From assembly GCF_000764655.1 (NCBI RefSeq), contig NZ_JRGL01000011.1, forward strand, positions 1-64,000: a stretch of DNA of 64,000 nt. The letters are read 5' to 3'. The position numbers were made by a program, and so were the translations under genes. This DNA is from Aeromonas aquatica. Its GTDB lineage: Bacteria > Pseudomonadota > Gammaproteobacteria > Enterobacterales > Aeromonadaceae. Under the pieces are notes generated by a model. It was not told the origin of the DNA, made no database searches, and worked only from the letters and a program-made list of their open reading frames with translations. Shown in pieces: positions 3,939-54,183 of this stretch (position 1 is its first letter; each line of letters begins with the position of its first letter).

Positions 3939-4874
3939 TTAAATAATTCTAAGCTCGGGCGGTACCTCGAACACGACGTTTTCTTCACGCCCCGGGTGCT
4001 CTGTCACTATCTTGCCGCCCAGCTCACGCAGGCGGGCGATGACGTTCTGTACCAGGATGTCGGGGGCAGAAGCGCCTGCCGTCACGCCAATGCGCAGAAC
4101 CCCTTCCAACCACTGCGGCTCTATCATGGAGGCGTCGTCGATAAGGTAAGCACGCGCTCCCACCTTCTCGGCCAGCTCCCGCAGGCGATTGGAGTTGGAG
4201 GAGTTGCGCGAACCGACCACCAGCATGGCATCCACCAGTCCCGCCATCTCCCGTACCGCATCCTGACGGTTCTGGGTGGCGTAGCAGATGTCGTCCTTGC
4301 GCGGCCCCTGGATCCTGGGGAAGTGCTTGCGCAGGGCATCGATGACGTCCGAGGTTTCATCCACGCTCAGGGTAGTCTGGGTGACGAAGCAGAGGTCGTC
4401 CGGGTTCTTCACGCTGAGCTTGGCCACGTCCTCCGGCGTCTCCACCAGATACATCCCCCCCTCGCGGTTCTCGTACTGACCCATGGTGCCGATCACCTCA
4501 GGGTGGCCGGCGTGGCCGATGAGCACGGCCTCGGATCCCTTGCGGCTGGCACGGTGGACTTCCATATGCACCTTGGTCACCAGCGGGCAGGTGGCATCGA
4601 ACACCTTGAGGGCGCGGGACTTGGCCATCTCACGCACCGACTTGGCGACGCCGTGAGCGGAGAAGATAACGATGCTGTCGTCCGGCACCTCGTCCAACTC
4701 CTCGACGAACACGGCGCCCGCTTCTTTGAGCTTGTTCACCACATAGCGGTTGTGCACTACTTCGTGGCGCACATAGATGGGGGCACCAAACTTCTCCAAC
4801 GCGCTCTCGACGATGCTGATGGCACGATCGACACCAGCACAAAAGCCGCGTGGATTGGCGAGTAGAATATCCAT
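3939..4874 (-). CDS. ispH: 4-hydroxy-3-methylbut-2-enyl diphosphate reductase
   Basis: A 311-residue enzyme of the MEP isoprenoid pathway. It reduces HMBPP to IPP and DMAPP in the cytoplasm with a [4Fe-4S] cluster. The N-terminus [19 protein letters not shown] carries the first cluster cysteine (C12). Further conserved cysteines lie in [11 protein letters not shown] (about 96) and [11 protein letters not shown] (about 197), and the substrate-binding [10 protein letters not shown] is intact. Length matches the family (E. coli 316). It is the last gene of ribF-ileS-lspA-fkpB-ispH. The start is overlapped by the stop of an 80-base echo of its own 5' end (see 4874-4954). Confidence 0.97.
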
Positions 4875-4954
4875 CAGATCACCTCGCTCATATTAATGAC
4901 ACGATCGATGCCAACACGACAGAAGCCACGGGGGTAAGCCTGCAGGATATCCAT
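4874..4954 (-). pseudogene. Mini-ORF: diverged duplicate of the fkpB/ispH junction
   Basis: A 26-codon open frame lies exactly between fkpB and ispH. It starts MDILQAYPRGFCRVGIDR, clearly a copy of the IspH N-terminus, with a one-residue insertion. It ends with a copy of the fkpB tail (GAGGTGATC before TGATG, compared with AAGGTGCAC before TGATG in fkpB). Both junctions are TGATG stop/start overlaps: fkpB stop with the mini-ORF start, and mini-ORF stop with the ispH start. This looks like an old tandem duplication of the gene junction that kept translational coupling. It cannot encode a functional IspH domain. Whether the peptide is made is unknown. Confidence 0.75.
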
Positions 4955-5406
4955 CAGTGCACCTTCTCCTCGTCATCGACGGCCAAGATCTCCACCTCGA
5001 AGGTGACGGTATGACCGGCCAGTGGGTGATTGAAATCGACAGTCACCGACATGCCTTCCACCGCCCGGATGATGCCGGGCAGCTCGCTGCCATTGGGCTG
5101 ATCGAAGACCATGATGGTGCCGACCTTGGGTTCCACATCGGCGCCGAACTTGGCGCGATCCAGATGGTAGATGTTGTCCGGATTGGAGAGGCCGAAGGCC
5201 TGCTCCGGGCTCAAGGTGAAACTCTTGGCTTCACCCTGCTGCAGGCCCAGCAAGCACTGTTCGAAGCTGTCGGTCAGGCTACCATCCCCCATCCGCAGGC
5301 GGGCCGGCTTGCCGTGCAGCGCCGTGCTGTCGGCAACCGAACCATCTTCCAGCTTGATAGAAAAGTGAAACAGCACGCTGCTGTCAGCGCCGATGATCTG
5401 GCTCAT
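4954..5406 (-). CDS. fkpB: FKBP-type peptidyl-prolyl cis-trans isomerase (SlpA family)
   Basis: A 150-residue SlpA/FkpB-type proline isomerase, close to E. coli FkpB in length (149). An FKBP core (VLFHFSIKLEDGSVADST ... GDGSLTDSFEQCLLGL) is split by an IF/SlyD-like insert domain around residues 70-120, and the chain ends VTFEVEILAVDDEE. It acts as a cytoplasmic folding helper. The start overlaps the lspA stop by four bases. The stop overlaps the following mini-ORF start (TGATG). Confidence 0.95.
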   Translation of the reverse strand: MSQIIGADSSVLFHFSIKLEDGSVADSTALHGKPARLRMGDGSLTDSFEQCLLGLQQGEAKSFTLSPEQAFGLSNPDNIYHLDRAKFGADVEPKVGTIMVFDQPNGSELPGIIRAVEGMSVTVDFNHPLAGHTVTFEVEILAVDDEEKVH

Positions 5407-5918
5407 GCCGTCTCTTCCTTCTTTTTCTCACTGCGAAAGCCTTCCAGCACTATCATGGCGGCGCCGATGAAGATGAAGCTGTCGGCCAGGTTGAACGCCG
5501 GCCAATGGGCGCGCTGCCAGTAGAAGTCGAGGAAGTCGACCACGTGGCCAAGCACCAGCCGATCGAACACGTTACCAAGGGCCCCGCCGATGATCAGGGA
5601 GTAGGCGATGCCACTCCAGCGCTGGGTGACAGACTGCTTGCGCAACCAGTGAATCAGCAGGCCACAGATGGCAAACGCCAGCACCGCGAAGAACCAGCGC
5701 TGCCAGCCCCCCTGATCGGCCAGGAAGCTGAATGCCGCCCCCTTGTTGTAGACGTGCACCAGGTTGAAGAAGGGGGTGATCTCCACCCCCGGGTAGCCAA
5801 ACGGCAGCAGCTTGACCACGGCGAGCTTGCTCCCCTGATCCAGCACGAAGGTCAGCACCGCCAGCCACAGCCAACGCAGGCCCGTTTTGTTATGAATAGC
5901 GTTATGAGTCATGTTCAT
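5403..5918 (-). CDS. lspA: Lipoprotein signal peptidase (signal peptidase II)
   Basis: A 171-residue inner-membrane aspartyl protease that cleaves prolipoprotein signal peptides after diacylglyceryl modification by Lgt (also in this window). Four hydrophobic segments are visible. The conserved motifs carrying the two catalytic aspartates are present: GGALGNVFDRL and VVDFLDFYW. The N-terminal segment before TGLRWLWLAVL is slightly longer than usual. The start at 5918 overlaps the ileS stop (TGATG), fixing it within the operon. Confidence 0.96.
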   Translation of the reverse strand: MNMTHNAIHNKTGLRWLWLAVLTFVLDQGSKLAVVKLLPFGYPGVEITPFFNLVHVYNKGAAFSFLADQGGWQRWFFAVLAFAICGLLIHWLRKQSVTQRWSGIAYSLIIGGALGNVFDRLVLGHVVDFLDFYWQRAHWPAFNLADSFIFIGAAMIVLEGFRSEKKKEETA

Positions 5919-8779
5919 CAGGCAAATTGACGCGTTTCGCCGTCACCCTCGACGTTGGTGACGCAGCGGCCACAGATCTCTTCGTGACCCTTGATGGTGC
6001 CCACGTCTTCCACATGGTGCCAGCAACGATCGCACTTGGCGGCGGCAGACTGAGCCACGCTCAGCCACAGATCGTCGCGCTCGGTGGCGACGGCGCCTTC
6101 CGGCGCCGCATCAGCGACCACCACCTTGGCCTTGGAGGTGAGCAGCACGAAGCGCAGCTCATCGGCCAGGGCGTTCAGGCGGGTCGCCAGTGCCGGTTTG
6201 GCGAACAGGGTCAGCTCGGCCTGCAGGGAGCCGCCGATGCGCTTCTCACCACGGGCCGCTTCCAGCGCCTTGTTGACCTCACCCCGGACTTCCAGGATCT
6301 CGGCCCAGAAGGCATCGCCCATCTGCTCGCCGGCATCCAGCCCGAACAGGCCGTCATACCACTCCTCGGTGAACACGAACTCGCCGCGCTCGCCCGGCAA
6401 CAGGGCCCAGATCTCGTCGGCGGTAAAGCTCATGATGGGTGCCATCCAGCGCACCATGGCCTCGACGATGTGATACAGAGCGGTCTGGCAGGAGCGACGG
6501 GCCAGGCTGTCGGCCTTGGCGGTGTACTGACGGTCCTTGATCACGTCCAGGTAGAAGGAGCCCATCTCGATGGAGCAGAACTGCATCAGCTTCTGGGTCA
6601 CACCGTGGAAGTTGTACTCGTCGAACGCGGTCACGATCTCGGCCTGTACCGCCTTGGCACGACCCACGGCCCAACGATCCACCACCACCATGTCGGCCGG
6701 AGCCACCATGTCGGTCGCCGGATTGAAGCCGTTCAGGTTCGCCAGCAGGAAGCGGGCGGTGTTGCGGATGCGACGATAGGCATCGGCGGAGCGCTTGAGG
6801 ATCTCGTCGGAGACGGTCATCTCACCGGTGTAGTCGGTGCTGGCAACCCACAGCCGCAGGATGTCGGCGCCGAGCTTGTTCATCACGTCCTGCGGGCTGA
6901 CCACGTTGCCGATGGACTTGGACATCTTGCGGCCCTGACCATCCACGGTGAAACCGTGGGTCAGCACCTGGTTGTAGGGGGCCTTGTTCTTCATGGCCAC
7001 GCCGATCATCAGGGAGGACATGAACCAGCCACGGTGCTGGTCGGAGCCTTCCAGATACATGTCGGCCGACTTGCCGTTGAACTCGGGGCGGGCATCCACT
7101 ACTGAGGAGTGGGTCGAACCTGAGTCGAACCAGACGTCCAGGGTATCGGGCACCTTGTCGTACAAGTCGGCGTCGCTGCCAAGCAGCTCGGCCTTGTCCA
7201 GATCCCACCAGGCCTGGATGCCAGACTGCTCGACCCGCTTGGCGACTTCGTGCATCAGGCGCACGGATTCCGGGTGCAACTGCTGGGTCTCCTTGTGAAC
7301 GAACAGGGAGATGGGCACACCCCAGGTGCGCTGACGGGAGATGCACCAGTCAGGGCGGTTCTCGACCATGGCCTGGATACGGTTCTTGCCCCAGGCCGGC
7401 ACCCAGCCGCTCTGGCCATGCTGGGCGATGCCATCGGTCTCGATGCGCTCGATCTCGGCAAGAGCCTGCTTGCGAAGCCCCTTCTGCTCCATGCTGATGA
7501 ACCACTGCGGGGTGGCACGGAAGATGATGGGGGTCTTGTGACGCCAGCAATGCGGATAGGAGTGGTTGAACACCTTGTGGTGCAGCAGGGCACCGCGCTC
7601 GGTCAACACCTCGACGACAGAGGCATTGGCCTTGAATACGTGCTGGCCGGCGAACAGCTCGGTATCCGGCAGGTAAACGCCGTTGCTGCCCACCGGGTTG
7701 GCGACTTCCAGACCGTACTTCTGGCCGACCACGAAGTCTTCCTGACCGTGACCAGGGGCCGTGTGCACGGCGCCGGTACCGGCATCCAGGGTGACATGAT
7801 CACCCAGCACAACGGGCACATCGAAGTGGTAGAAGGGGTGGTTGAAGCGCAGCAGCTCGAGCGCTGCCCCCTTGGCATAACCCAGATTGTGGTACTTCTC
7901 GATGCCAGCGCGGTCCATCACATCCTTGACCAGCTCGGCGGCCAGGATCAGGCGCTCGGGGTTATCCCCTTCCACCTGCACCAGGGCATAGTCCAAGTCG
8001 GCGTGCATGGCGATGGCGCGGTTGGCCGGCAGGGTCCAGGGGGTGGTAGTCCAGATCACGGCAGAGAGCGGGCCACGGCCGGTGTGACCTTCAGGGCAGT
8101 CAAACTTGGCAGCCACAGTCGCCTCATCGACGGCCTTGAAGCGCACGTCGATGGAGGGGGAGTTCTTGTCGTAATACTCCACCTCGGCTTCCGCCAGGGC
8201 GGAGCCGCAGTCGGTACACCAGTGCACCGGCTTGGAGCCTTTGTGCAGGTGGCCGTTCTCGACGATCTTGGCCATGGAGCGGATGATGTTCGCTTCGGTG
8301 CCAAAGTCCATGGTCAGGTAGGGATGTTCCCAGTCACCCAGCACGCCCAGACGGATGAAGTCGGTCTTCTGCGCTTCGATCTGGGTCTTGGCATATTTGC
8401 GGCACTCGGCGCGGAATTCGGCGGCAGAGACCTTCACACCAGGCTTGCCGACGAGCCCCTCGACCTTAAGCTCGATGGGCAGACCATGGCAATCCCAGCC
8501 CGGCACATAGGGGGAATCGAAACCGGAGAGGCCCTTGGACTTGATGATGATGTCTTTGAGGATCTTGTTGACCGAGTGACCGATGTGAATGCTGCCGTTC
8601 GCGTAGGGAGGGCCGTCATGCAGAATGAACGAAGGCTTGCCCGCTTTGGCGCGGCGAATAGCGCCGTAAAGATCCTGATCGTACCAACGCTTCAGCATGT
8701 TGGGTTCGCGCTTGGCCAGATCGCCACGCATCGGAAACTCGGTTTCCGGCAGATTCAGGGTGTGTTTATAGTCGCTCAT
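5918..8779 (-). CDS. ileS: Isoleucyl-tRNA synthetase
   Basis: A 953-residue class I aminoacyl-tRNA synthetase that charges tRNA-Ile and edits misactivated valine. Visible signatures are HIGH at residues 65-68 ([12 protein letters not shown]), the CP1 editing insert ([24 protein letters not shown]), KMSKS near residue 610, and a C-terminal zinc-binding region with paired cysteines (KCDRCWHH ... CGRC). Length fits the bacterial family. Start and stop both share TGATG overlaps with ribF and lspA, so the start choice is secure. Confidence 0.98.
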
Positions 8780-9753
8780 CAGTCCTGGGTTCCCTTCTTT
8801 GCTAAAAGAGTGCTGGGTAAATTGAATGGTGGCAGCCCGAACCAGGCTCGGGCCGCCAGGGCATCTCGTTCGATCTGCTCTTTCAAGGCGGTGAAAGAGG
8901 CAAATTTCTGCTCTTCGCGCAGCTTGTGGCGAAGCAGCACCTTGACCTGCTGACCATATAGATCACCAGAAAAATCAAATAAATGTACTTCCAATCTGGC
9001 TTGTGTGCCGCTCAAGGTCGGCCGTACGCCCACGTTGGCAACGCCGGGGAAGGTCTTGCCGGAACATAACACTTCCACCGCGAACACGCCACCGACCGGG
9101 ATCACCTGCCGCTTGAGGGCCAGATTGGCAGTGGGAAAACCTATGGTACGGCCCAGCTTGTCGCCGTGGGCGACCCGACCGCTGATGGCGTAGGGGCGGC
9201 CAAGCATCAGCTCCACCTCCGCCATCCGGCCCGCCTTCAGGGCCTCGCGCACCAAGGTGCTGCTGATCCGCTGACGTTCGATCTGGAAGCTTTGAGTGCT
9301 GATTACCTCGAAACCGTAGCGGCGTCCCGCCGCTTCCAGCAGGTGGAAGTCCCCTTCCCGGCCGCGGCCGAAGCGAAAATCATCCCCCACCACCAGATAG
9401 TGCACGCCGAGTTTTTCCACCAACAGCTGCTCGATGAAGGCGTTGGCCGTCTGCTCGGCGAAACGATGGGTGAAGTGCACGCACAGCATGCGATCGATCC
9501 GCATCCCCCTGAGCGCCTCGTACTTCTCACGCCAGCGGCTGAGGCGAGCAGGGGCATCAGCCCCGGCAAACAGCTCAAGGGGCTGGGGTTCGAACAGCAT
9601 GACGCAGGCGGGCAGGCCCAGCTCGGTGGCTTTTTCCTGCAGCCGAGCCAGCACAGCGTGGTGCCCCTGATGAACCCCATCGAAGTTACCTATGGTCAAT
9701 ACACAGCCCCGATGACGGGGCTTGATATTGTGAATGCCGCGAATAAGCTCCAT
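8779..9753 (-). CDS. ribF: Bifunctional riboflavin kinase / FAD synthetase
   Basis: A 324-residue enzyme that phosphorylates riboflavin to FMN and adenylates it to FAD. The N-terminal nucleotidyltransferase domain shows [14 protein letters not shown] (about residue 23) and [13 protein letters not shown]. The C-terminal riboflavin kinase domain shows [11 protein letters not shown] and a GVANVG motif. Family length is about 310-320. It precedes ileS as in many gammaproteobacteria, with the stop overlapping the ileS start. Confidence 0.97.
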
Positions 9754-9814
9754 CAGTGCCTTGTGCGTTGCTGCCGGGAAATCGGCGGATTATATATCAG
9801 GCGGCAGGCAGGGT

Positions 9815-9886
9815 CAGCCCTCCCCGCCCGATTTCAGGTATCTTGCTCAAATGCTGACGCCAGCGATCCCGCACGAAACAGCAGGA
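9815..9886 (-). repeat. Diverged tandem copy of the murJ 3' end
   Basis: The murJ tail around CCCGATTTCAGGT (9903-9915, plus-strand reading) recurs 76 bases away at 9827-9839. Flanking matches extend on both sides, including CAGCAGGA and ATCCCG blocks. The copy lies just downstream of the murJ stop in the ribF leader. It is too degraded to code for more than a short tail and is best read as a decayed junction duplication. Confidence 0.6.
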
Positions 9887-11455
9887 TCAGTCCTGCTGCT
9901 GACCCGATTTCAGGTGCCTCGGTCGAATGCCGAGCACCAGCAGGACTATCCCGTACAGGGCCCCGCCGAGGCAGAGCAGCAGAGTCAGCTCCAGGCTGGC
10001 CTTGCCCATGCTCCAAGCCCCCCATTGGGCGAGATCCGGCGAGAGGTACGCAAGCAGGCCCCCCATCAGCAGGGTCGCCGCCAGCAACTTGAGGCAAAAC
10101 ACCCCGGTCTCGCGGGACGGCCGGTAGACCTTCTGCTCATAGAGTCCCTTGAACAGCAGGGCCGCGTTCAGGGTGCCGGAGCAGGCGGTGGCGAGCGCCA
10201 GCCCCACATAGCCGAGCGGATAGATGAAGATGAGGTTGCACACCATGTTGGCCACCATGGCCATCACCCCGATCCGCACCGGGGTTCGGGTGTCCTGGCG
10301 GGCGTAGTAACCGGGGGCCAGCACCTTGATCAACATCAGGGAGAGCAGGCCCGTGGTGGAGGCCAGCAGGCTGGCGCTGGACATGCTGACCTCGTGCAGG
10401 CCGAACTCCCCGCGCATGAACAGCACCCGCAGGATGGGCTCGCGCAACACGGCGATCCCCACCATGGCGGGCAGGCCCAGCAGCATCACCATCCGCACCC
10501 CCCAGTCCATGGTGCGGGAGAAGTCGGCGAGATCCGCATCCACGTGCTTCTTCGCCAGTGCCGGCAGGATCACCGTGCTGATGGCGACCGCAAACAGGCC
10601 TAGCGGGAACTCCAGCAGCCGATCCGAGTAATAGAGGTAGCTGATAGCACCGGTCGCCAGGAAAGAGGCGAGCATGGTGTTGATCAGCAAGTTGATCTGG
10701 CTGACCGAAACGCCAAACAGCGCCGGGATCATCAGTGTGCGGATCTTGACGACCCCGGGGTGATGCCAACCCCACTTGGGCCACACCAGCATGTTCATCT
10801 GGCGCAGGAAAGGATACTGGAACAGGAACTGCACCAGCCCCCCGAGGAAGACCCCGATCGCCAGCGCGATTTCGGGATTGTCCATCAAGGGCGCTATCCA
10901 CCAGGCGGCCGCAATCATGGTGAGGTTGAGGAACACCGGAGTAAAGGAAGAGACGGCGAAGCGGCCGTAGGTGTTGAGGATGGCCCCCGCCATGGCGGTA
11001 AAGGTAATGAACCAGAGATAGGGGAAGGTGATCTTGAGCATCAGGCTGGCCAGCTCGAACTTCTCGGCCGCCGGGCCGCCATGCAGCCAGTCCCAGAACC
11101 AGCCCCAGCCAAACAGGGCGGTCAATACCCCCGAGCCCAGTACCCCGAGCAGGGTGACGACGGTGACTATGCCACCCAGGGTCCCCGCCACCGCAGCCAG
11201 CAATTCACGCACCTCATCCTCATTACCCTTCTTCTTGTACTCCGTCATCACCGGCACGAAAGCCTGGTTGAAGGCCCCTTCGGCGAACAGGCGACGCAGG
11301 AAGTTGGGAATGCGGTTGGCGAAAAAGAAGACGTCTGCGGCCATCCCGGCGCCGAGCAGGTTGGCGATGACCACATCGCGAACCAGGCCCATCACACGGG
11401 ACGCCAGCGTCATTGCGGACACTATCATGCCGGATTTGATCAATTTCTTACTCAA
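9887..11455 (-). CDS. murJ: Lipid II flippase MurJ
   Basis: A 522-residue integral membrane protein of the MOP superfamily with about 14 hydrophobic segments. It flips lipid II across the inner membrane for peptidoglycan synthesis. The N-terminus shows SGMIVSAMTLASRVMGLVRD and the conserved ANRIPNFLRRLFAEGAFNQA segment, with functionally important arginines. Length agrees with E. coli MurJ (511). It is divergent from rpsT, an arrangement shared with enterics and vibrios. Its 3' end is echoed downstream (9815-9886). Confidence 0.96.
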   Translation of the reverse strand: MSKKLIKSGMIVSAMTLASRVMGLVRDVVIANLLGAGMAADVFFFANRIPNFLRRLFAEGAFNQAFVPVMTEYKKKGNEDEVRELLAAVAGTLGGIVTVVTLLGVLGSGVLTALFGWGWFWDWLHGGPAAEKFELASLMLKITFPYLWFITFTAMAGAILNTYGRFAVSSFTPVFLNLTMIAAAWWIAPLMDNPEIALAIGVFLGGLVQFLFQYPFLRQMNMLVWPKWGWHHPGVVKIRTLMIPALFGVSVSQINLLINTMLASFLATGAISYLYYSDRLLEFPLGLFAVAISTVILPALAKKHVDADLADFSRTMDWGVRMVMLLGLPAMVGIAVLREPILRVLFMRGEFGLHEVSMSSASLLASTTGLLSLMLIKVLAPGYYARQDTRTPVRIGVMAMVANMVCNLIFIYPLGYVGLALATACSGTLNAALLFKGLYEQKVYRPSRETGVFCLKLLAATLLMGGLLAYLSPDLAQWGAWSMGKASLELTLLLCLGGALYGIVLLVLGIRPRHLKSGQQQD

Positions 11456-11569
11456 GACGAAGCCTCTGGAACTGTCAGAATGGAAAGAATGCTGGTAGAA
11501 TCGGCCGACAGTTTAACCGCCTCCCAACTGACACACCACCGGGGGGCGGTGTTTATTTGCACAAATCAT

Positions 11570-11598
11570 TTGACAATATGTGGTTGGAAGGGCATATT
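11570..11598 (+). promoter_or_regulatory. Probable rpsT promoter
   Basis: TTGACA at 11570-11575, a 17-base spacer and CATATT at 11593-11598, about 50 bases upstream of the rpsT start. The -35 is perfect and the -10 matches at 4 of 6 positions. Confidence 0.6.
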
Positions 11599-11646
11599 TC
11601 CGGGCCTTTTCAATACACTCGCTAAGACAGTTTTAGGAGTTTTACC

Positions 11647-11910
11647 TTGGCTAATATCAAATCTGCTAAGAAGCGCGCGATTCAGTCAGAGAAACGTCGT
11701 CAACACAACGCCAGCCGTCGTTCCATGACCCGTACCTATCTGAAGAAAGTAATTGCTGCCATCGCTTCTGGCGACAAGGCTGCTGCCACTGCCGCTTTCG
11801 CTGTTGCCCAGCCGATCATGGATCGTATGGCTACCAAAGGCCTGATCCACAAGAACAAAGCTGCTCGTCACAAGAGCCGCCTGTCTGCCCAGATCAAAGC
11901 TATGGCTTAA
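11647..11910 (+). CDS. rpsT: 30S ribosomal protein S20
   Basis: An 87-residue basic, helical protein that binds 16S rRNA at the bottom of the small subunit. [20 protein letters not shown] and the end [13 protein letters not shown] are diagnostic. Translation starts at TTG behind TAGGAG. A UUG start is also used in E. coli, where it takes part in S20 autoregulation. The gene stands alone between murJ and a bidirectional terminator. Confidence 0.98.
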
Positions 11911-11934
11911 GCAGCTTCGGCTGTATAAAGCTCA

Positions 11935-11962
11935 AAAAACCGGCCCTAGGGCCGGTTTTTTA
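11935..11962. terminator. Bidirectional terminator between rpsT and hlyU
   Basis: AAAAAACCGGCCC TAG GGCCGGTTTTTT-type perfect hairpin with A- and T-runs on either side. It serves rpsT on the plus strand and the hlyU end on the minus strand. Confidence 0.9.
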
Positions 11963-25150: not shown

Positions 25151-25179
25151 GACGCATTCCGGTTCTTGGCGTAACAAAT

Positions 25180-25345
25180 GGGGTGCATTATACCCCAGTC
25201 AGCACTATGAGGACGATGATTCGCCGCACAGCGGCCACCTGCCATCAGCATGGTCAGGCGTAATAGATGAGGCGCATTATACCTCAGTCAACGCCAGAGG
25301 ACGATTATTCACCGCACGGGGCGGTCACCTGCTACTTATATATGG
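25180..25345. repeat. Diverged 89-base tandem duplication in the ffh/ypjD divergent region
   Basis: Copy 1 starts GCATTATACCCCAGTCA near 25185 and copy 2 starts GCATTATACCTCAGTCA near 25274. Both continue with AGGACGAT, ATTC, CCGCAC, GCGG and CACCTGC blocks. By eye about 80% of 65 positions match. Each copy holds a perfect -10 hexamer TATAAT on the minus strand (25187-25192 and 25276-25281), so the ffh promoter appears duplicated. No ORF is conserved across the copies. Confidence 0.7.
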
Positions 25346-32234: not shown

Positions 32235-32360
32235 TCAGCCTCCGTAATGGCGGATATAAAAGGATGCCTGCTTGGGCCCGAATTCACTCAGCTGACTGAC
32301 GACGATCGGTTGCAGGGTGGTCACTAATCCCCCCAGCAGGGTCAAGAAATAGTCCTGCAT
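32235..32360 (-). pseudogene. Mini-ORF B: fused echo of ArtM start and ArtQ end
   Basis: A 41-codon open frame between artQ and artM. It begins MQDYFLTLLGGLVTTLQ, nearly the ArtM N-terminus, and ends LSEFGPKQASFYIRHYGG, nearly the ArtQ C-terminus. The GGAGGCTGACC leader with stop and Shine-Dalgarno is the same as that of artM. It is in frame throughout. Best explained as tandem duplication of the artQ/artM junction that kept start and stop. It cannot span the membrane as a permease; translation is unproven. Confidence 0.75.
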
Positions 32361-32362
32361 GG

Positions 32363-32461
32363 TCAGCCTCCGTAACGACGGGTATAGGGGGCCGCCAGTG
32401 TGAGATTGAGGCCAAACTCCCTCACCAAGTTCACCAACGGGGTCATGAGATAGTTATTCAT
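32363..32461 (-). pseudogene. Mini-ORF A: second fused echo of the artQ/artM junction
   Basis: A 32-codon open frame starting MNNYLMTPLVNLVREFGL and ending APYTRRYGG, identical in its last seven residues (YTRRYGG) to ArtQ. The start lies five bases after the artQ stop behind GGAGGTTAAGG, and the stop is TGA two bases before mini-ORF B. It is shorter and more diverged at its start than mini-ORF B, suggesting a different deletion history. Confidence 0.72.
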
Positions 32462-45766: not shown

Positions 45767-45867
45767 GGGTTGCTCCTCGCACGTTGCCCCTCAGTGTGGG
45801 GGGGGATCACTATGCCGCAAAGCATCCGGGCAGAATACAAAAACCACATAAAAGACAGCGGGATAAT

Positions 45868-45892
45868 GAAAAAAGCCGATCCAGGGATCGGC
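45868..45892 (-). terminator. Terminator of the glycerate operon
   Basis: AAAAAAGCCGATCC AGG GATCGGC hairpin, T-run on the minus strand. A second stem GGCCGGCGC/GCGCCGGCC (45955-45975) lies between it and the garK stop. Confidence 0.8.
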
Positions 45893-45985
45893 AAGGTGCG
45901 TCAGAGCGTTTGCTGCCAGGCAGCCAACCACATCCGCTACACGGGACAGGAAGTGGCCGGCGCCATGCGCCGGCCAGAAGAGGGA

Positions 45986-47119: not shown

Positions 47120-47128
47120 ATCAGTTCC

Positions 47129-48391
47129 TTAGGCGAGACCAAACACGCCAAACATCAGGGTGGAGACGGCTGCAATGGTCAGACCGACGGCAGTTTCGTA
47201 GGGGATGAGCTTCAGACGCTCGCTCACGCCCATGTGGACGCTGCCCCCGGTGGCATGGAAGAAGGAGCCGTGCGGCATGTGGTCAAACACGGTGGCACCG
47301 GCGTGGATCATGGCGGCGCCGGCCAGGCTGGTGATGCCGAGTTCGATCAGGGTGGAGCTGAACACGTTGGAGGCCACCACGGTACCGGCTGTGGTCGAGG
47401 CGGTCGCCAGCGACATCAGGGCACCGGAGATGGGGGCCAGCAGGTAGGAGGGCAGACCGGAGGCGGTCAGGCCGCTGATCAGCACATCCTTCAGACCGGA
47501 GTTGGCGATGATGCCCGCCAGGGTACCGGTACCCAGCAGCATGATGGCCACCGGCGCCATGCGGGCCAGACCGGATACCGCAAACTGGTTCACCTTGCTG
47601 AACTTGCCCATCATCAGGGCGCCGACCAGGCCGCCGAGCGGCAGGGCGATGAGCGGATCCACGACGATACCGGCCAGCGGGCGCAGGGCCAGCAGCAGGA
47701 TGGCGACCAGGGGCGCGCTGATGGCGGCCAGGAAGCCAGGCAGCTGGGCACCGTCAAAGCTCACTACCTCGTCGGCGGCGACCTTGCTGCCCTTGTTGTT
47801 GAGGCGCTTGGCCAGCCAGTAGGCCATCACCAGACCAAACAGGCCCGGGATGATGCCGGCCGCCATCACCGAGGTGAGCGGCAGGTGGAAGGCGTCGGAC
47901 GCGGCGATGGCGTTCGGGTTGGGGGACATGACGTTGCCCGCCTTGCCGCCACCTATCATGGCCAGCAGGATGGCGGCCTTGGAGAGGTCGGCACGGCGAG
48001 CGATGGCCAGGGCGATGGGGGCGACAGTGATGACGGCCACGTCCACGAACACGCCGACCGCGGTCAGGATCAGGGTGGCCAGCGCCAGCGCCAACAGGGC
48101 ACGGGTCTCGCCGAGCTTCTTGACGATGGTTTCGGCGATGGTGGTGGCGGCACCGGATTCGATCAGCACGCCGGCCAGCACGCCGGCCGCCAGGATCCGC
48201 ATCACGGCGGTGGTGATCCCCTGGGCGCCGCCGATCATCAGGGCGACGGTCTGGGTCAGGTCGGCTCCGCCGATCAGGCCACCGGCCAGGGCACCGACGA
48301 TCATGCCGTAAGCGGGCGGCACCTTCTTCAGGATGAGGAAGATGGCGATGGAGAGCGCAGCGAGAGCACCGAGCGCGGATACAGGGATCAT
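47129..48391 (-). CDS. GntP-family sugar-acid/glycerate permease
   Basis: A 420-residue transporter with about twelve hydrophobic segments. LKKVPPAYGMIVGALAGG, IGGGKAGNVMSPNPNAIA and GAAMIHAGATVFDHMPHGSF match the GntP/ion-transporter superfamily. With garK and cdaR next to it, glycerate or a diacid such as glucarate is the likely substrate, by context only. The ATG at 48391 has AAGGTG six bases upstream and is preferred to GTG at 48400. Two perfect palindromes precede it. Confidence 0.88.
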   Translation of the reverse strand: MIPVSALGALAALSIAIFLILKKVPPAYGMIVGALAGGLIGGADLTQTVALMIGGAQGITTAVMRILAAGVLAGVLIESGAATTIAETIVKKLGETRALLALALATLILTAVGVFVDVAVITVAPIALAIARRADLSKAAILLAMIGGGKAGNVMSPNPNAIAASDAFHLPLTSVMAAGIIPGLFGLVMAYWLAKRLNNKGSKVAADEVVSFDGAQLPGFLAAISAPLVAILLLALRPLAGIVVDPLIALPLGGLVGALMMGKFSKVNQFAVSGLARMAPVAIMLLGTGTLAGIIANSGLKDVLISGLTASGLPSYLLAPISGALMSLATASTTAGTVVASNVFSSTLIELGITSLAGAAMIHAGATVFDHMPHGSFFHATGGSVHMGVSERLKLIPYETAVGLTIAAVSTLMFGVFGLA

Positions 48392-48444
48392 GACGGGCAC
48401 CTTGAGTGGGAGTAAGTGGTGGCCATTATGGTGATCCCGGGTCG

Positions 48445-48474
48445 GAAAGCTTTGGCCGAAAAGCCAAAGCTTTC
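48445..48474. promoter_or_regulatory. Perfect 12-base inverted repeat upstream of the glycerate operon
   Basis: GAAAGCTTTGGC (48445-48456), six-base loop, GCCAAAGCTTTC (48463-48474), 54 bases before the transporter start and just beyond cdaR. No T-run follows on the minus strand, so an operator is more likely than a terminator for cdaR. Confidence 0.55.
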
Positions 48475-48492
48475 GTTTTCATATCGTCACTT

Positions 48493-48510
48493 TTTGTTCA
48501 TATGAACAAA
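48493..48510. promoter_or_regulatory. Perfect 18-base palindrome abutting the cdaR stop
   Basis: TTTGTTCATATGAACAAA, fully self-complementary, ending one base before the cdaR stop codon and about 100 bases upstream of the GntP-family gene. Candidate operator. Confidence 0.55.
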
Positions 48511-49626
48511 TCAACCGTCGAGATTGAGCCCGAGATAGAGCAGGAACTTGTCATCTAACTTGTTGAAATTTAACCCTGTTATCTGTTCTATCCGGGTCAG
48601 CCGGTAACGCAGGGTATTGGGATGAATGAACAAGGCATCGGCACAGGGATGCAGATCACAATCCTGCAAGAAATATTGGCGCAGCGTCTTTTGCAGCGTT
48701 CCCTTTGCATCCTCTTGCGCCAGCCTGAGCAGGGGGGCCCGCAGCTGATCCGCCTGCCAGGAGTCCGCCAGGCTGCCGAGCAGCACCGGCAGCCGGTAAT
48801 CCTCGAAGAAGTAGACCTGCTTGCGCGGCGCCTGGCGCATGCCACGGCGCAGGGTGTCGCGGGCGGTCTGATAGGAGCGGGCCAGGCCATCGATCCCGGA
48901 GAAGTAATCACCCACCCCGATGCGCACCTTGAAATGGGGAATGCGGGCCAGCAGCTGCTTGATGCGGCTGCGCTCCTGCGCCGATTGCCAGACGCCGTCG
49001 CTGAGCTGGGCCGGCTTGAGCACCACTATCTCGTCCAGGCCGTTGATGGCCACCAGGTTGTCCCGCTCCGGGTACTCCAGCAGATGCACCAGCTCCCGCA
49101 ACCGGGCGGGATCGGCCTCCTCCAGCGTCAGCACGGCCACCACCCGAGGCTGGGCCAGATCCAGCTCGAGGAAGCGGGCCGCCTGCTGCAGCTGATCGAC
49201 CCGCCCCTCGCCACGGATGAGCTGCAGCACCAGCTCCTCCTTGTGGCGCTTGTCCCACTGCAGTTGCTCGGTCAGCGCCGCCTGCTCGAGGATCAGCTCG
49301 GCGGTCATCCGCACCAGCTCGGCGTAAGCGCGCACTTCCTCCGGATCCCCCGAGATGCCGATGACCCCGAGCAGCTCCCCCTGATAGGCGATGGGCAGGT
49401 TGATGCCGGGTCGCACCCCCTTGAGCTGCTGGGCGGTGGCCTCGCTGATCTCCACCACCCGGTTCTCGGTCAGCGCCAGCACGGCCCCCTCGTGGCGCTG
49501 GTGCAGCCGCTCCGGATTGCCGGAGGCGATGATGAGGCCACGTTCATCCATCACGTTGACCGAGAATGAGAGGATCTTCATCGCCCGGCTGACGATCTGC
49601 CGGGCCAGGGTATCATTTAGCTGCAT
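48511..49626 (-). CDS. cdaR: Sugar diacid regulator CdaR
   Basis: A 371-residue regulator of the CdaR family. N-terminal diacid-recognition domain MQLNDTLARQIVSRAMKILS, NVMDERGLIIASGNPERLHQ and PGINLPIAYQGELLGVIGIS; GGDEF-like middle (VRIGVGDYFSGIDGLARSYQ); C-terminal PucR-type HTH ALFIHPNTLRYRLTRIEQIT. In E. coli it activates galactarate, glucarate and glycerate genes. It stands upstream of the GntP-type permease and garK. Its 5' end is duplicated upstream (49613-49753). Confidence 0.95.
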   Translation of the reverse strand: MQLNDTLARQIVSRAMKILSFSVNVMDERGLIIASGNPERLHQRHEGAVLALTENRVVEISEATAQQLKGVRPGINLPIAYQGELLGVIGISGDPEEVRAYAELVRMTAELILEQAALTEQLQWDKRHKEELVLQLIRGEGRVDQLQQAARFLELDLAQPRVVAVLTLEEADPARLRELVHLLEYPERDNLVAINGLDEIVVLKPAQLSDGVWQSAQERSRIKQLLARIPHFKVRIGVGDYFSGIDGLARSYQTARDTLRRGMRQAPRKQVYFFEDYRLPVLLGSLADSWQADQLRAPLLRLAQEDAKGTLQKTLRQYFLQDCDLHPCADALFIHPNTLRYRLTRIEQITGLNFNKLDDKFLLYLGLNLDG

Positions 49627-49753
49627 GGGCTCTCCTGATCTCGTCGGAGGCGATGATGGGGCCCTGCTCTCCCTCGTTCACATCGACCGGGAACCACAGG
49701 ATCTTTATCGCCAGACTGACAATCCGATGAGCGAGCGCGTCATTTAACTGCAT
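49613..49753 (-). pseudogene. Mini-ORF: diverged duplicate of the cdaR 5' end
   Basis: A 46-codon open frame starting MQLNDALAHRIVSLAIKIL behind GGAGATCCC. About 17 of the first 25 residues match the CdaR start, including a GPIIAS block matching GLIIAS. It runs past the cdaR start and stops 14 bases inside it in another frame. The period is 127 bases. It has its own Shine-Dalgarno, but no residual function is expected; it might affect cdaR translation by coupling. Confidence 0.75.
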
Positions 49754-49861
49754 GGGATCTCCGAACAAAAAACGAGGTAACGCTGCAAAGATGTCACATC
49801 ATCAAGACAAGCGCGGGGGGGATCGCTAGAATAGGCCACTTTACCTCAGGTGTGCCCCACC

Positions 49862-49900
49862 ATGGATCACGAATCGGCGCCAGACGCCACGCCGTGGTGA
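49862..49900 (+). pseudogene. Short echo of the yacL start
   Basis: ATG GAT CAC GAA at 49862 reads MDHESAPDATPW then stop, and resembles ATG GAC TAT GAA of yacL (MDYEFRRDPFGG) 69 bases downstream at nucleotide level. Just before yacL, CGCTATGGAC also occurs twice within 22 bases. Similarity is short, so chance is not excluded. Confidence 0.45.
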
Positions 49901-49930
49901 TGGCCCCACCCTTTCGCTATGGACCCCGCT

Positions 49931-50305
49931 ATGGACTATGAATTTCGCCGCGACCCGTTCGGTGGCTATCGCGCCCGGTTCTCCATGGGCCATGAAGCCA
50001 TCGGCCAATGGCTGATCGACGAGGTGGGCAAGGATGAGGAGAAACTCGATGAGCTGTTCACCATCATCGACCGGCTCTCCAGCCGCGCCCTGGTCGAATA
50101 CAGCCTGCCCGGCGGCGACTATTCGCTGTTGCTCACCCATGAAGAGGCGGAGGTGAAAGCCAACGTCCTCAATATCTCGCTGGACGAGGATCTCGACGAT
50201 CTCGCCTACTACGATGATGAGCAACTGGCCATGTGCGGGCTGGAAGATTTTGCCCAGGTGCTTGCCTCCTGGCGCGCCTTTATCCGCAACGAGGATATGG
50301 GCTGA
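49931..50305 (+). CDS. yacL: UPF0231 family protein YacL
   Basis: A 124-residue acidic protein matching E. coli YacL (120) in MDYEFRRD...RFSMGHEAIGQWLIDE and the end YYDDEQLAMCGLEDFAQVLA. Function is unknown in the family. The ATG at 49931 gives the E. coli-like start; an upstream in-frame ATG at 49919 adds MDPA and belongs to a small local repeat. Followed 51 bases later by an unknown acidic gene. Confidence 0.88.
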   Translation: MDYEFRRDPFGGYRARFSMGHEAIGQWLIDEVGKDEEKLDELFTIIDRLSSRALVEYSLPGGDYSLLLTHEEAEVKANVLNISLDEDLDDLAYYDDEQLAMCGLEDFAQVLASWRAFIRNEDMG

Positions 50306-50356
50306 ATAACCGTGATGATCGGGCAAACTGCCCGCCGCAAACCAACAGGATTGACT

Positions 50357-50650
50357 ATGTCTATTTACGATTTTGATGACGAACTGCCGGAAGACGAAGA
50401 ACAGGAATCCACCAAGAAAGCCGTCCCCCCCAAGAAGAAGGGCAAGCAGGTGATGAACACCCAGGTCAACCTGAGCCCGCGCGATGCCAGCCGTCTGAAC
50501 GGCATGCACGTGGAGGCCATCGCCACCCTGGACGACGTCAGTCTGCCGAAGAACGTCATCTTCAAGGCTGGCCTGATCGCCCTTGGCGAGCTGGAAGCCA
50601 CCAAGCGGGCCGATATCATCGCCCGCGTGATCGCCGAATCAGGTCGATAA
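50357..50650 (+). CDS. Unrecognised small protein with acidic N-terminus
   Basis: A 97-residue protein. The first 17 residues are strongly acidic (MSIYDFDDELPEDEEQE), then a lysine-rich stretch (KKAVPPKKKGKQ), then a predicted alpha/beta part with LSPRDASRLNGMHVEAI and LPKNVIFKAGLIALGELEA. I do not recognise the family. The N-terminal charge pattern suggests disorder. ATG at 50357 has CAGGA about eight bases upstream. The last 17 codons are repeated three times downstream. Confidence 0.75.
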   Translation: MSIYDFDDELPEDEEQESTKKAVPPKKKGKQVMNTQVNLSPRDASRLNGMHVEAIATLDDVSLPKNVIFKAGLIALGELEATKRADIIARVIAESGR

Positions 50651-50833
50651 GCCAGCGACCAAGCGTATCGATAGCATCATCGCCCGCGTGATCGCCGAAT
50701 CAGCTCGATAAGCCAGCGACCAAGCGTATCGATAGCATCATCGCCCGCGTGATCGCCGAATCAGGTCGATAAGCCAGCGACCAAGCGTATCGATAGCATC
50801 ATCGCCCGCGTGATCGCGGAATCTGGCCGATAA
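50651..50833 (+). repeat. Three 61-base tandem repeats derived from the 3' end of the preceding gene
   Basis: Units 50651-50711, 50712-50772 and 50773-50833 differ at only a few positions, mostly in the third. Each begins GCCAGCGACCAAGCG and ends with a TAA, and contains ATCATCGCCCGCGTGATCGC, which is the coding sequence for IIARVIA at the end of the gene just upstream. Read in the matching frame each unit encodes TKRIDSIIARVIAES and a stop. Not a CRISPR: there are no spacers. Confidence 0.92.
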
Positions 50834-50916
50834 GCATCTGCGTTGAGTCAGAAAATCAGTCTTTTATGCCGCCAGGATGCCAATGAATGGCACAAGGTCG
50901 CTACTGAGATAGCCAT

Positions 50917-50943
50917 AGCCGGAGCCTCTGCTCCGGCTTTTTT
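50917..50943 (+). terminator. Terminator after the 61-base repeats
   Basis: AGCCGGAGC CTCT GCTCCGGCT followed by T's. Confidence 0.9.
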
Positions 50944-51060
50944 GTATCCCGACACGCCCGCCTTGACCGGCAGTACAGGGATCCGACCCGTCTATTGACC
51001 CTTGTGTCACGGCATGGCGGCTCGTTAAGGTGCGTCCCCTCAAAGATGAAAGGAGACTCA

Positions 51061-51891
51061 ATGCTGCCACTATCTGATGCCCTGATCTGGGGAACCCTGG
51101 CGCTCGCCGTGCTGCTCTGCCTCGCTCGTCAGCAGAAGCCTGGTCTGCTCCTGCTCGGGGTGGCCCTGCTGGCCGCGCTCTGGTTTGAGCGACTCAGCCC
51201 CATCGCCCTGCTGGCCAGCCTCGCCGGCCTGTTGCTGGCCTGGCGAACCCCCAGGCTGTCCATGCCCTGGCGCGGGGTGTCACTCGGCCTGGTGCTGCTG
51301 TGGGCCATCGCCCTGACGCTGCATCTGGTGCCGGGTTTTGACAACCCCAGGGTGCTGGATCGGGTGCTGGCGGGCCCCGCCAGCGTGCCCTTCAGCCTCT
51401 ATCTCAACCTGGACAAGCCGCTGATCTTCTTCGGTCTGCTGCTGGCCTGGCCCGCCCTGCTCGGCCCGGGTGGGCCGATTCGCTGGCGACCGCTGGCCCT
51501 GCTCATCCTGCCACTGGCGGCCCTGTTGCTCCTCGCCTGGCAACTCGGCGCCCTCAAGCCGGAGCTGGGTCTGCCTCACTGGTGGTGGCTGTTTGCCCTC
51601 AACAACCTGCTGTTCACCTGCGTGGCGGAGGAGGCACTGTTTCGGGGCTTTATCCAGCAGGCCATCGCCAAGCGCCGTCAGATCTGGGTGGGCATCCTGA
51701 TCGCCAGCCTGCTGTTCGGGGCCGCGCACCTGGCCGGTGGCCCGCTGCTAATGCTGTTTGCCGCCCTGGCGGGAGCCTGCTACGGGCTGGCATTCCTGTG
51801 GAGCGGACGGCTGAGTGTCGCCATCCTGCTGCATTTCCTGTTCAACTTCGCTCACCTGGCCTTCTTCACCTACCCGCTGGCCAGCCGCTGA
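51061..51891 (+). CDS. CPBP-family intramembrane metalloprotease
   Basis: A 276-residue inner-membrane protein with eight or more hydrophobic segments. The CPBP/Abi motifs are in order near the C-terminus: AEEALFRGFIQQ (paired glutamates), LLFGAAHLAGG, and LLHFLFNFAH. These residues form the zinc/catalytic site in CAAX-like proteases. The N-terminal half (1-120) is a membrane region without a known motif. Start ATG 51061 follows AAAGGAGACTCA. Substrate unknown. Confidence 0.9.
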   Translation: MLPLSDALIWGTLALAVLLCLARQQKPGLLLLGVALLAALWFERLSPIALLASLAGLLLAWRTPRLSMPWRGVSLGLVLLWAIALTLHLVPGFDNPRVLDRVLAGPASVPFSLYLNLDKPLIFFGLLLAWPALLGPGGPIRWRPLALLILPLAALLLLAWQLGALKPELGLPHWWWLFALNNLLFTCVAEEALFRGFIQQAIAKRRQIWVGILIASLLFGAAHLAGGPLLMLFAALAGACYGLAFLWSGRLSVAILLHFLFNFAHLAFFTYPLASR

Positions 51892-51925
51892 GGCCACTGG
51901 CATCGCCTTTTGGGCGAACGACGGA

Positions 51926-51962
51926 CAAAAAAATGCCCCGAACACAGGTTCGGGGCATTTTT
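51926..51962. terminator. Bidirectional terminator between the protease and DUF4426 genes
   Basis: ATGCCCCGAAC ACA GGTTCGGGGCAT stem with seven A's before and T's after, between convergent genes. Confidence 0.9.
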
Positions 51963-51974
51963 CATCGACCCGGA

Positions 51975-52394
51975 TCAGTCGACGTAGAAGGTCTGCTGGA
52001 AGGTCAGGGTCTGCTGCTGCCCCTCCCCTATGATCTTCAGGGTGAACTGGTAGGTGTCCTCATTGCGATAGGGCAGCACCGCCAGATAGTAGATGGACTC
52101 CCCCTCCTTCACCTCCTGAAAACTCAGGGTGCGGATGGTACCGGTCAGGTTCTTGGCCTCGCCGCTGATGCCAACCGCCTGGGCTACCCCTTGCTTGTTC
52201 TGCACCGCGATATTGATGATGCCGTTATAACGGCTGCGCTCCAGACCGTAGGCCTTGGCCACCTCGGGGGTGAGGAAGCTGGAGTTGAAGGCGTTGTAAT
52301 GCACCTGCCAGGGGCCCAGCTCCTTCATCTGTTCGGCCCGCAATGGCAGCGTCATCAACAGTGCCAACAGGCAGCTAATCCAGGCTGTTTTCAT
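51975..52394 (-). CDS. DUF4426 exported protein
   Basis: A 139-residue protein with signal peptide MKTAWISCLLALLMTLPLRA. The mature part begins EQMKELGPWQVHYNAFNSSF, with RYNGIINIAVQN and TLTFQQTFYVD at the end, matching DUF4426, a beta-rich periplasmic family. It is usually found, as here, downstream of yggT/yggU. Function unknown. ATG 52394 follows AAGGATGACATC. Confidence 0.85.
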   Translation of the reverse strand: MKTAWISCLLALLMTLPLRAEQMKELGPWQVHYNAFNSSFLTPEVAKAYGLERSRYNGIINIAVQNKQGVAQAVGISGEAKNLTGTIRTLSFQEVKEGESIYYLAVLPYRNEDTYQFTLKIIGEGQQQTLTFQQTFYVD

Positions 52395-52398
52395 GATG

Positions 52399-52707
52399 TC
52401 ATCCTTCTCGTGTTCCGCTCTCCAGCAGGGCTTCAATCTCGGCGGGGATCTGCCTTGGCGCCTCTATGGTGACCGTCTTGTGCCGCCCAAGCTCCCCCCG
52501 CACGATGCGAACCTGCCCCTTGGCCACCTTGAATTGCTTGGCCAGGTACTTGATCAAATGGCCATTGGCCTGGCCATCCACCGGCGGTGCCGTGATGGCC
52601 ACTTTCAACTCGTCGCCATGCAATCCGACGATCTGATCCCGGCTCGCCTTGGGCTGGATCATCAGATGCAGCGTCAGCCCGTCCCCCTCTTGCAGGACGG
52701 CTGGCAT
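52399..52707 (-). CDS. yggU: DUF167 family protein YggU
   Basis: A 102-residue protein. [20 protein letters not shown] and [20 protein letters not shown] are nearly identical to E. coli YggU (96 residues). Role unknown. ATG 52707 overlaps the yggT stop (TGATG), so translation is coupled. Confidence 0.93.
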
Positions 52708-53258
52708 CAGATCATCCACCACAGCTGGCCGAACAGATCTCCTAACAGATAGTTTATGGCCTGCAGCGCGATAAAGGCGACCAGCACCGAAAGATCCAGC
52801 CCACCCAGGGCCGGCAGGATACGGCGGATCGGCGCAAGGAAGGGCTCGGTCAACTGATGCATCACGTATTCGATGGGGTTGCGGCCTTGGCTGACCCAGC
52901 TCAGGATGGCGCGGATCAACAGCACCCAGAAGATCATGGAGCCCGCTTTCTTCAGCACGGTGAGGAAGGCGAACAGGCTGAGGGTGAGCCAGTCGGTCAA
53001 CAGCACGTTCATGCTCTTGAGCAGCGCCAGCTTGGCGAAGGCGATGACCAGGGCCAGCAACACCGAGGCCATGTCCAGCCCGCCGAAGCCGGGAATGACG
53101 CGGCGCAGCGGGATCACCAGCGGATTGGTCAGCTTGACCACCATCTGGCTCATGGGATTGTAGAAATCGGCGCGGGCCCACTGCAGCCAGACGCGCAGCA
53201 ACACCACCATGAGGTAGATATCGAAAATCGTGTTAATCAGAAAGTAAGCGGTGTTCAT
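52707..53258 (-). CDS. yggT: YggT family inner-membrane protein
   Basis: A 183-residue protein with two copies of the YggT repeat, each with hydrophobic helices: [19 protein letters not shown]...[15 protein letters not shown] and [15 protein letters not shown]...[13 protein letters not shown]. In E. coli it is linked to osmotic and K+ tolerance. It lies 24 bases after proC and overlaps yggU. Confidence 0.93.
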
Positions 53259-53282
53259 CCGGGCTCCTGTTCAAAAAAAGGT

Positions 53283-54107
53283 TCAGAAAAGAGTTTCCAT
53301 TTCGGCGGCTCGGGTGACGGCCGCCTGCATGGCACGCGCGGTCAGCGGCATCAGCCCCTGCTCCTGGAAGGTCTTGACGGCCTCGGCCGTGGTGCCGCCC
53401 TTGCTGGTCACTTGCTCGCGCAGGGTCTGCAGGGAGAGCTGCGGGTTCTGCTCCACCATGGCGGCAGCCCCGAGCGCGGTCTGCTGCACCAGCAGGCGAG
53501 CCTGCTCCGGTGAGAAGCCCATGGCCTCGGCCTCTTCGGCGATCGCCTGCATGAACAGGAAGAAGTAGGCCGGCGCACTGCCCGCCGCCGCGATGACGCC
53601 GTTGATGCCTGACTCCTGCGAGGTCCAGAGGGTCTTGCCCACAGACTGCATCATCTGCTCGGCAAAATCGCGATCCTCCTGCCCTATGGCAGGCGGCGCA
53701 TACAGGCCCGTCATCCCCAATCCCAGCAGGGAAGGGGTGTTCGGCATGGTACGAATGATGCGCCCATGACCCCCTGCCATCTCCTGCAACCGCTCGACCT
53801 TGATGCCGGCGGCGATGGAGATGAGCAGCCTGCCTTCCAGCGAGCCCAGCTCGGCGACCAGGGAGCTAAGCATGCCCGCCATCAGCTGTGGCTTGACCGC
53901 CAGCACTATGACATCGCTCGCCCGGGCCGCCTCGGCGTTATCCTGAGTGACGCGGATACCAAACTGGCTGGCCAGTGCGTCGAGTTTGGGACGGCTCGGG
54001 TTGGCGGCCAGGATCCGATCCGCCGGATAGCCCGCCTGCACCAGGCCGGCAATGATACTGCGGCTCATGTTGCCCGCCCCGATAAAGGCGAGGATCTTAT
54101 GCTGCAT
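53283..54107 (-). CDS. proC: Pyrroline-5-carboxylate reductase
   Basis: A 274-residue NADPH enzyme for the last step of proline synthesis. Rossmann start HKILAFIGAGNMSRSIIAGL; VILAVKPQLM; RTMPNTPSLLGLGMTGLY; and the C-terminal signature GSAPAYFFLFMQA and LREQVTSKGGTTAEAV. Standard length. Its 5' end and leader are duplicated upstream (54097-54183). Confidence 0.97.
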   Translation of the reverse strand: MQHKILAFIGAGNMSRSIIAGLVQAGYPADRILAANPSRPKLDALASQFGIRVTQDNAEAARASDVIVLAVKPQLMAGMLSSLVAELGSLEGRLLISIAAGIKVERLQEMAGGHGRIIRTMPNTPSLLGLGMTGLYAPPAIGQEDRDFAEQMMQSVGKTLWTSQESGINGVIAAAGSAPAYFFLFMQAIAEEAEAMGFSPEQARLLVQQTALGAAAMVEQNPQLSLQTLREQVTSKGGTTAEAVKTFQEQGLMPLTARAMQAAVTRAAEMETLF

Positions 54108-54183
54108 CTTGCTCTCCTGCTGATGAAATGACTGCGGAGCCCTGCGTGCCCGCCCCGATAAAGGCGAGAGTTCTATGCTGCAT
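54097..54183 (-). pseudogene. Mini-ORF: diverged duplicate of the proC 5' end
   Basis: A 28-codon open frame starting MQHRTLAFIGAG, then TQGSAVISSAGEQDAA. Its start region matches the first dozen codons of proC, with a 76-base period; the plus strand shows TGCCCGCCCCGATAAAGGCG in both. A CAGGAG Shine-Dalgarno precedes both copies. It ends 11 bases inside proC. After the Rossmann glycines it diverges, so no enzyme function. Confidence 0.8.

Follow-up and report, generated by a model that had tools for sequence, protein, structure and literature searches.

Short tandem duplications, tens to hundreds of bases long, recent, reversible and placed inside genes, are reportedly the basis of cap3A phase variation in the pneumococcus, and the microhomology-mediated tandem duplications of fission yeast are said to share this size range, recency, reversibility and position. 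As to translation, the termination-reinitiation pairs tested in one study nearly lost coupling at a distance of ~20 nt, and −4 and −1 nt are the most frequent spacings (PMC10666635), and a review proposes that short upstream open reading frames (ORFs) deliver ribosomes to the next gene (PMC12548453). Here we analyzed a 64 kb stretch of Aeromonas aquatica DNA (the window), which is contig 13 of the 4.58 Mb draft assembly (171 contigs) of genome G000 and a selected place, not a random sample. In it, the starts, ends or junctions of genes stand beside tandem copies of themselves. We consider it probable that short tandem duplications arise frequently in this lineage, that those sparing the genes survive, and that copied gene starts persist as translated mini-ORFs coupled to the gene downstream.

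The window was compared with itself without gaps (+1/−1.2 scoring) at all offsets of 30–330, and far offsets of equal size (3000–3300 and 9000–9300) served as controls. Segments scoring at least 17 numbered 14 at offsets 30–330, several of them in one array, and 0 at each far offset, which rules out chance or base composition as the cause of the copies. A first-pass annotation of this DNA had listed eight duplicated boundaries, and seven of them stand clear of chance. The eighth, a 69-base period at the yacL 5′ end (49855..49943, strand not assigned), scored 9.0, within the null of random 301-base window pieces at periods 66–72 (90th and 95th percentiles, 8.4 and 9.6), and was rejected.

Four of the seven boundaries, all on the minus strand, carry copied starts or junctions. 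Between fkpB (FKBP-type isomerase, 4954..5406, PF00254) and ispH (LytB family, 3939..4874, PF02401), where the best score within the claimed period band is 20.0 at period 80, lies a 26-codon mini-ORF (4874..4954) in which a duplicate of the ispH start is fused to one of the fkpB end, with TGATG overlaps at both ends. The junction of two permease genes, for which we keep the earlier, putative labels artQ and artM, scored 52.4 at period 128, with another diverged copy ~104 bases off. Specifically, a 41-codon mini-ORF with an ArtM-like start and an ArtQ-like end (32235..32360) stops 5 bases ahead of the artM ATG, and a 32-codon mini-ORF right after artQ (32363..32461) is the further copy of the junction, with a unit of ~104 bases. 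Two mini-ORFs thus stand in series at 32235–32461, against a single one in each of the five other genomes that carry the unit. Upstream of cdaR lies a 46-codon copy of its start (49613..49753; score 41.0, period 127) that stops at +11 of the cdaR start, and upstream of proC a 28-codon copy (54097..54183; score 31.4, period 76) that stops at +8. All four places bear out the earlier statement that the copies remain open and keep the ribosome-binding site and the stop/start overlaps.

The three others involve the murJ end, the ffh upstream region and the gene at 50357. The murJ 3′-end duplication (minus strand, 9827..9933, period 76) is the weakest one accepted: its score of 17.8 is weak alone, and the same place scores at least 16.6 in 7 of 25 genomes, with a maximum of 44.2 in G001. 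The region upstream of ffh (minus strand, 25168..25317, period 88–89) reached 23.0 at period 89. The last bases of the gene at 50357 form an array of four copies at 61-base spacing (plus strand, 50615..50835; best score 149.0); the final copy has diverged from the others and corresponds to the single allele of G016, the closest relative of G000 among the genomes searched. Pfam supports the assignment of ispH, fkpB, murJ, cdaR, proC, yacL (UPF0231) and the two permease subunits, and no Pfam match was found for the 97-aa gene at 50357.

Stop positions of copied gene starts

Event scans (score 20, periods 25–300, N excluded from matches) covered the window, a 181 kb sample of G000 (245 kb for the cluster scan) and a 395 kb sample of G002, drawn evenly from a complete chromosome; masked bases of both samples were dropped. 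In 24 cases from the window and samples, the duplicated segment covers a called gene start, and 21 of the upstream copies retain a start codon. With "coupled" defined as a stop at −6..+13 of the real start, 15 of these 21 are coupled, 6 stop earlier and 0 stop later. When the same sequences were shifted by a one- or two-base deletion, 9% were coupled, 55% stopped early and 36% stopped later (P = 7e-12), and the excess held without the window (11/17 coupled, P = 2e-8). Fresh duplications simulated at 468 real starts were coupled in 21%, early in 35% and later in 44% (P = 1e-6 for 15/21 against this null); after 18% random substitution the shares were 16%, 50% and 34%. In a later set, for which the range was fixed beforehand, 3 copies were coupled and 1 stopped early (13% coupled in the control, P = 0.007). 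The 15 coupled stops comprise TGATG overlaps (4), ATGA overlaps (4), and positions −5 (2), −4 (1), +8 (3) and +11 (1). A stop within ~20 nt of the next start, the spacing of coupled pairs, was found in 15/21 and 3/4 cases, and such spacings fit what termination-reinitiation needs according to published measurements (PMC10666635).

For the comparison across species, all 25 genomes supplied homologous regions of fkpB/ispH, murJ, ffh and art, 24 that of proC, 17 that of cdaR and 12 that of the gene at 50357. At proC, a mini-ORF with a ribosome-binding motif ends at the start in 11 of 24 genomes (1 uncoupled, 12 none); it begins at −76 in six and −79 in four, all ten stopping at +8, and at −71 in one, stopping at −2. 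At cdaR, 7 of 17 genomes have a coupled mini-ORF (1 uncoupled, 9 none), beginning at −127, −136 and −139 (stop +11), at −137 (+7), and at −43, −43 and −55 (+8). Most length differences at these two genes are multiples of three, with exceptions. The fkpB/ispH mini-ORF is open in 4 genomes and stops at −2 in all, and the 41-codon ORF ahead of artM is open, 128 bases from the real start, in 6/6 genomes with the unit (of 25).

Several single cases stand beside these series. At proC of G013 (L078, ~11572–11713), two motif-bearing starts follow each other at −142 and −76 and share the stop at +8, and G019 and G024 have, by eye, an older-looking proC-start-like stretch lacking a start codon farther upstream of proC. 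G006 carries a 30-codon coupled mini-ORF between fkpB and ispH for which the scan found no duplicate; it may be an old relic or of separate origin. L125 (15652–15852, G002) and L239 (12973–13146, G019) apparently share the same gene start, orthology being judged from the peptide start only, and their relics of 110 and 107 bases both stop at +1.

Of the upstream ORFs that carry a ribosome-binding motif, 10/25 in G000 and 13/30 in G002 end at the gene start, against 10% and 16% of those without it; over the clade, 40–44% of motif-bearing upstream ORFs are coupled versus 10–18% without the motif. Per 100 ATG starts with room, and irrespective of any duplication, motif-bearing coupled ORFs number 7.0 in G000, 5.4 in G002 and 6.2 in nine other clade members, 2.9 and 3.2 in other Aeromonas groups, 3.1 (2/64) in E. 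coli, 0.6 in Vibrionaceae, 0.4 in Alteromonadales, and 0 both in Oceanimonas with its relatives and in four genomes of other families. Since base composition differs between groups, the contrast within a group is safer than these rates. The stop positions strongly support coupled ORFs for copied gene starts, whose frame suggests that they are translated and coupled.

We propose the following explanation. Tandem duplications of ~40–200 bases would arise often in one Aeromonas lineage; those within genes would be purged unless the period is a multiple of three, and those spanning a gene start, a gene end or both would spare the gene and persist. A copied start would bring its own ribosome-binding site and start codon, so that the upstream copy is presumably translated. 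Expression would suffer from a copy that reads through into the real gene in the same frame or continues well beyond its start, whereas at a copy whose frame ends a few bases from the real start the terminating ribosome could restart there. Survivors would then be mostly ribosome-relaying mini-ORFs, because late-stopping or in-frame copies would spoil expression. Once a gene depended on the relay, frame and openness would be kept and the peptide could drift. Additionally, alleles bearing a duplication might cross species by homologous recombination.

A number of points weigh against this explanation. The range of −6..+13 behind the count of 15/21 was fixed after the first ORF data had been seen, 6 of the 21 relics stop early, and 3 further ones lack a start codon. 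Gene starts came from a home-made caller and some are apparently wrong (likely mis-called: L126, L119 and L052; those of the window and samples were kept in the frame test), the G000 sample was drawn mainly from contig beginnings, and events in different species are non-independent. The multiple-of-three rule is broken at proC by a 71-base case (G012) and by 77-base relics in G011 (stop −2) and G018 (broken), and at cdaR by the 137-base case of G019; stops of the exceptions have moved or been lost. The motif contrast likewise appears in duplication-poor Aeromonas groups (32% vs 13% and 35% vs 19%), and in E. coli coupling is seen for 2/7 of the motif-bearing upstream ORFs. Taken by itself, the ffh neighbourhood of Aeromonas is unremarkable (4 events in 219 kb, 11 loci), and three core blocks show no event in 8 of 24 species, including G024 of the duplication-rich clade. 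Finally, the ratio of nonsynonymous to synonymous differences (pN/pS) in the relics is 0.56 for the six art sequences and 0.23 for the four of cdaR, which may reflect peptide constraint or copying between the two copies. On account of the cdaR ratio, the multiple-of-three exceptions and the contrast in duplication-poor groups, we slightly lowered our confidence in the explanation above and slightly raised that in functional peptides.

Such peptides would be adaptive through their sequence, either as leader peptides of attenuators or as small proteins (microproteins), and we regard them as unlikely. Both relic ratios are below 1; the real ends have far lower ones (ArtM 0.08, ArtQ 0.02, cdaR 0.05). 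The proC relics are 78–97% identical (ungapped) across six species and the DNA just upstream 17–54%, but the conserved stretch is partly the ribosome-binding region of proC. Peptides ahead of the same gene differ by species (ispH in G006; cdaR in G001, G012 and G015). At cdaR, moreover, relic and real copy within G002 and within G007 are 98% alike, a likeness that suggests copying between copies, which may lower the ratio.

Frequency and placement of the duplications

The event scans returned 6 events in the 64 kb window, 17 in the 181 kb G000 sample and 27 in the 395 kb of G002. Not inside coding sequences (CDS) are 15 and 25 of the sample events, or ~8 and ~6 per 100 kb. Clusters with periods of 40–200 amount to 23 in 245 kb of G000, none of them dispersed, and to 27 in 395 kb of G002, of which 1 is dispersed. 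At longer periods the counts for G000/G002 are 4/4 (200–300), 1/3 (300–460) and 1/3 (460–620). Four genomes of other families, 100 kb each, gave 0, 1, 2 and 1 clusters, E. coli gave 5 in 200 kb (4 private), and 69 non-Aeromonas ffh neighbourhoods (1411 kb) gave 15, of which 8 are private and 7 were counted as dispersed, possibly since related species share the set. Over 74 loci of 24 congeneric genomes, N-free segments scoring at least 20 numbered 44, versus 3 at the far-offset control. In later random stretches, the rate of non-CDS events per 100 kb was 7.5 for G019 (80 kb), 3.3 for G015 (60 kb) and 2.5 for G003 (80 kb); there were 0 in 60 kb of G020, the tree sister of a veronii genome, and 0 in 40 kb of G021, apparently A. 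diversa. These counts support frequent short tandem duplications, unevenly so between lineages.

In the two samples, 40 of 44 events lie outside CDS and 38 of these 40 touch a gene start or end, whereas ~68% of random spans fall inside CDS. All in-CDS events, 4 in the samples and 13 in blocks of relatives, have periods divisible by 3. This pattern is that of purifying selection, which would act as a filter on random duplications, and the loss of gene-breaking duplications explains most of the boundary placement. Copied gene ends are about as numerous as copied starts (20 of 50 events in the window and samples). One 14 kb stretch of G000 (L093, contig 8, 4626–18287) holds four separate duplicated gene 3′ ends with copies 77–91% identical.

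A process aimed at boundaries, such as transcription-replication conflict, a paused polymerase or R-loops, is improbable in comparison with random duplication plus a filter. Several boundaries are hit in many species, and 38/40 is above expectation; however, ~80% of random non-CDS spans touch a boundary as well, so that the boundary pattern alone is weak evidence for a boundary-specific process. The excess over what the filter predicts is small, and the recurrence at art is explained by shared descent or transfer. Of the recurrent process at boundaries envisaged by the first-pass annotation, the high frequency is supported, and the targeting is not needed. The excess of boundary copies over controls on which it had made its pattern depend was found, in a comparison run on samples rather than the whole genome.

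It is quite improbable that the copies are neutral relics, which would arise and decay irrespective of translation and have open frames by chance. Copied ends, which need no function, are as common as copied starts, the boundary placement follows from purifying selection, and six of the 21 relics stop early. Against neutrality stand the 15/21 coupled with 0 later (9% and 36% in the frame-shifted controls) and the 3/4 of the later set. Short coupled ORFs, selection for which the annotation had offered as its other reading, have strong support for copied starts and are not supported for copied ends.

History and possible exchange between species

A species tree was built from 25 genomes and 17,077 columns, with 2 of 16 regions skipped as species were missing. 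Presence of the duplications is patchy on this tree. The art unit occurs in six genomes of two clades, and the fkpB/ispH duplication in G000, G001 and G015, being absent from G016. At ffh, the 10 of 25 genomes scoring at least 16.6 belong to one clade and fit one gain with one exception (G015). Between species, conservation of the relics is about equal to that of the real ends beside them, except for ispH in G001 (62–68%), and the art relics are, by eye, alike across species beyond the likeness of their real genes.

Two places point to exchange. The single gene end of G016 shares 99% identity with the last copy of the 50357 array in G000 and 59% with the first. At cdaR, the real start of G000 and the next 190 bases are 97–99% identical to G019 (G016: 88% and 96%), whereas for the 45 bases upstream of the first G000 copy the identity is 98% with G016 and 44% with G019. 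The G000 relic itself, however, is only 78% like the G016 start. Judged from these likenesses, interspecies recombination would fit at 50357, where the recipient's own gene end may have become the relic, and partly at cdaR; the ispH sequences give no clear signal. How far copies have diverged is thus an unsafe measure of age, because at 50357 and partly at cdaR the divergence includes alleles of different species, and the earlier view that the copies are old since they are diverged is not safe. We also considered that copies were generally born diverged through foreign DNA; this is supported at 50357 and partly at cdaR, is unclear at ispH and was not seen at art (by eye), and it was kept only as a route of spread.

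A wider possibility, which we put forward tentatively, is that boundary duplication is a standing source of translated chimeric mini-genes or ribosome relays that move between species and that, if the 15 in 640 kb are extrapolated, would number on the order of a hundred in each genome. Each would join the start of gene B to the end of gene A, or copy B's own start; the ends of the unit, being homologous to the recipient's single copy, would allow transfer, and the recipient's gene end would become the next relic.

At two places the duplicated layout can be set against unduplicated relatives. Of 25 genomes, 3 have a fkpB/ispH region of 641 bases and 19 have one of 561, and the art region measures 667 versus 539–545 bases with a unit of 128; at both, the copies are head to tail and relatives are shorter by the exact unit. 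Integrating elements use gene ends as attachment sites, and footprints of excised elements that carried gene-end copies could leave repeats at such places. That origin is highly improbable here: the regions grow by exactly 80 and exactly 128 bases in head-to-tail copies, no foreign DNA was seen between the copies at fkpB/ispH and art, where the insertions are of exact unit length, and starts as well as ends are copied. Dispersed intergenic repeats of the REP or ERIC type sitting at boundaries, of which one E. coli match of the scan is an array (19 matches elsewhere), can hardly account for the copies, since units match elsewhere in their own genome's sampled sequence in 0/23 (G000) and 1/27 (G002) cases.

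Relation to described systems

No description of this pattern appears in the titles or abstract beginnings among the matches listed from the open-licence literature. The duplicated starts offer a natural experiment in reading frames, apparently sorted by selection on where the copied ORF stops; the sorting suggests translation and shows which stop–start spacings cells tolerate. They also provide a visible route to new small ORFs, and the underlying mutational trait is lineage-specific, so that comparison of sister clades could reveal its cause.

The duplications of cap3A and of fission yeast are reportedly like the Aeromonas copies in size range and tandem layout; the latter differ in being fixed in assemblies, often diverged, and located at boundaries. 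REP/BIME arrays are likewise intergenic tandem copies of similar period, but the Aeromonas units are private to one place. A further likeness is to overlapping coupled gene pairs: the mini-ORFs stop at coupling spacings (PMC10666635, PMC6728339), with TGATG and ATGA the commonest here (4/15 each). They differ from such pairs in that the upstream partner is a by-product of duplication, ~17–50 codons long and no gene, and that coupling is read from the frame. Compared with the upstream ORFs proposed to deliver ribosomes, the origin of the ORF is visible here, namely a copy of the downstream gene's own start.

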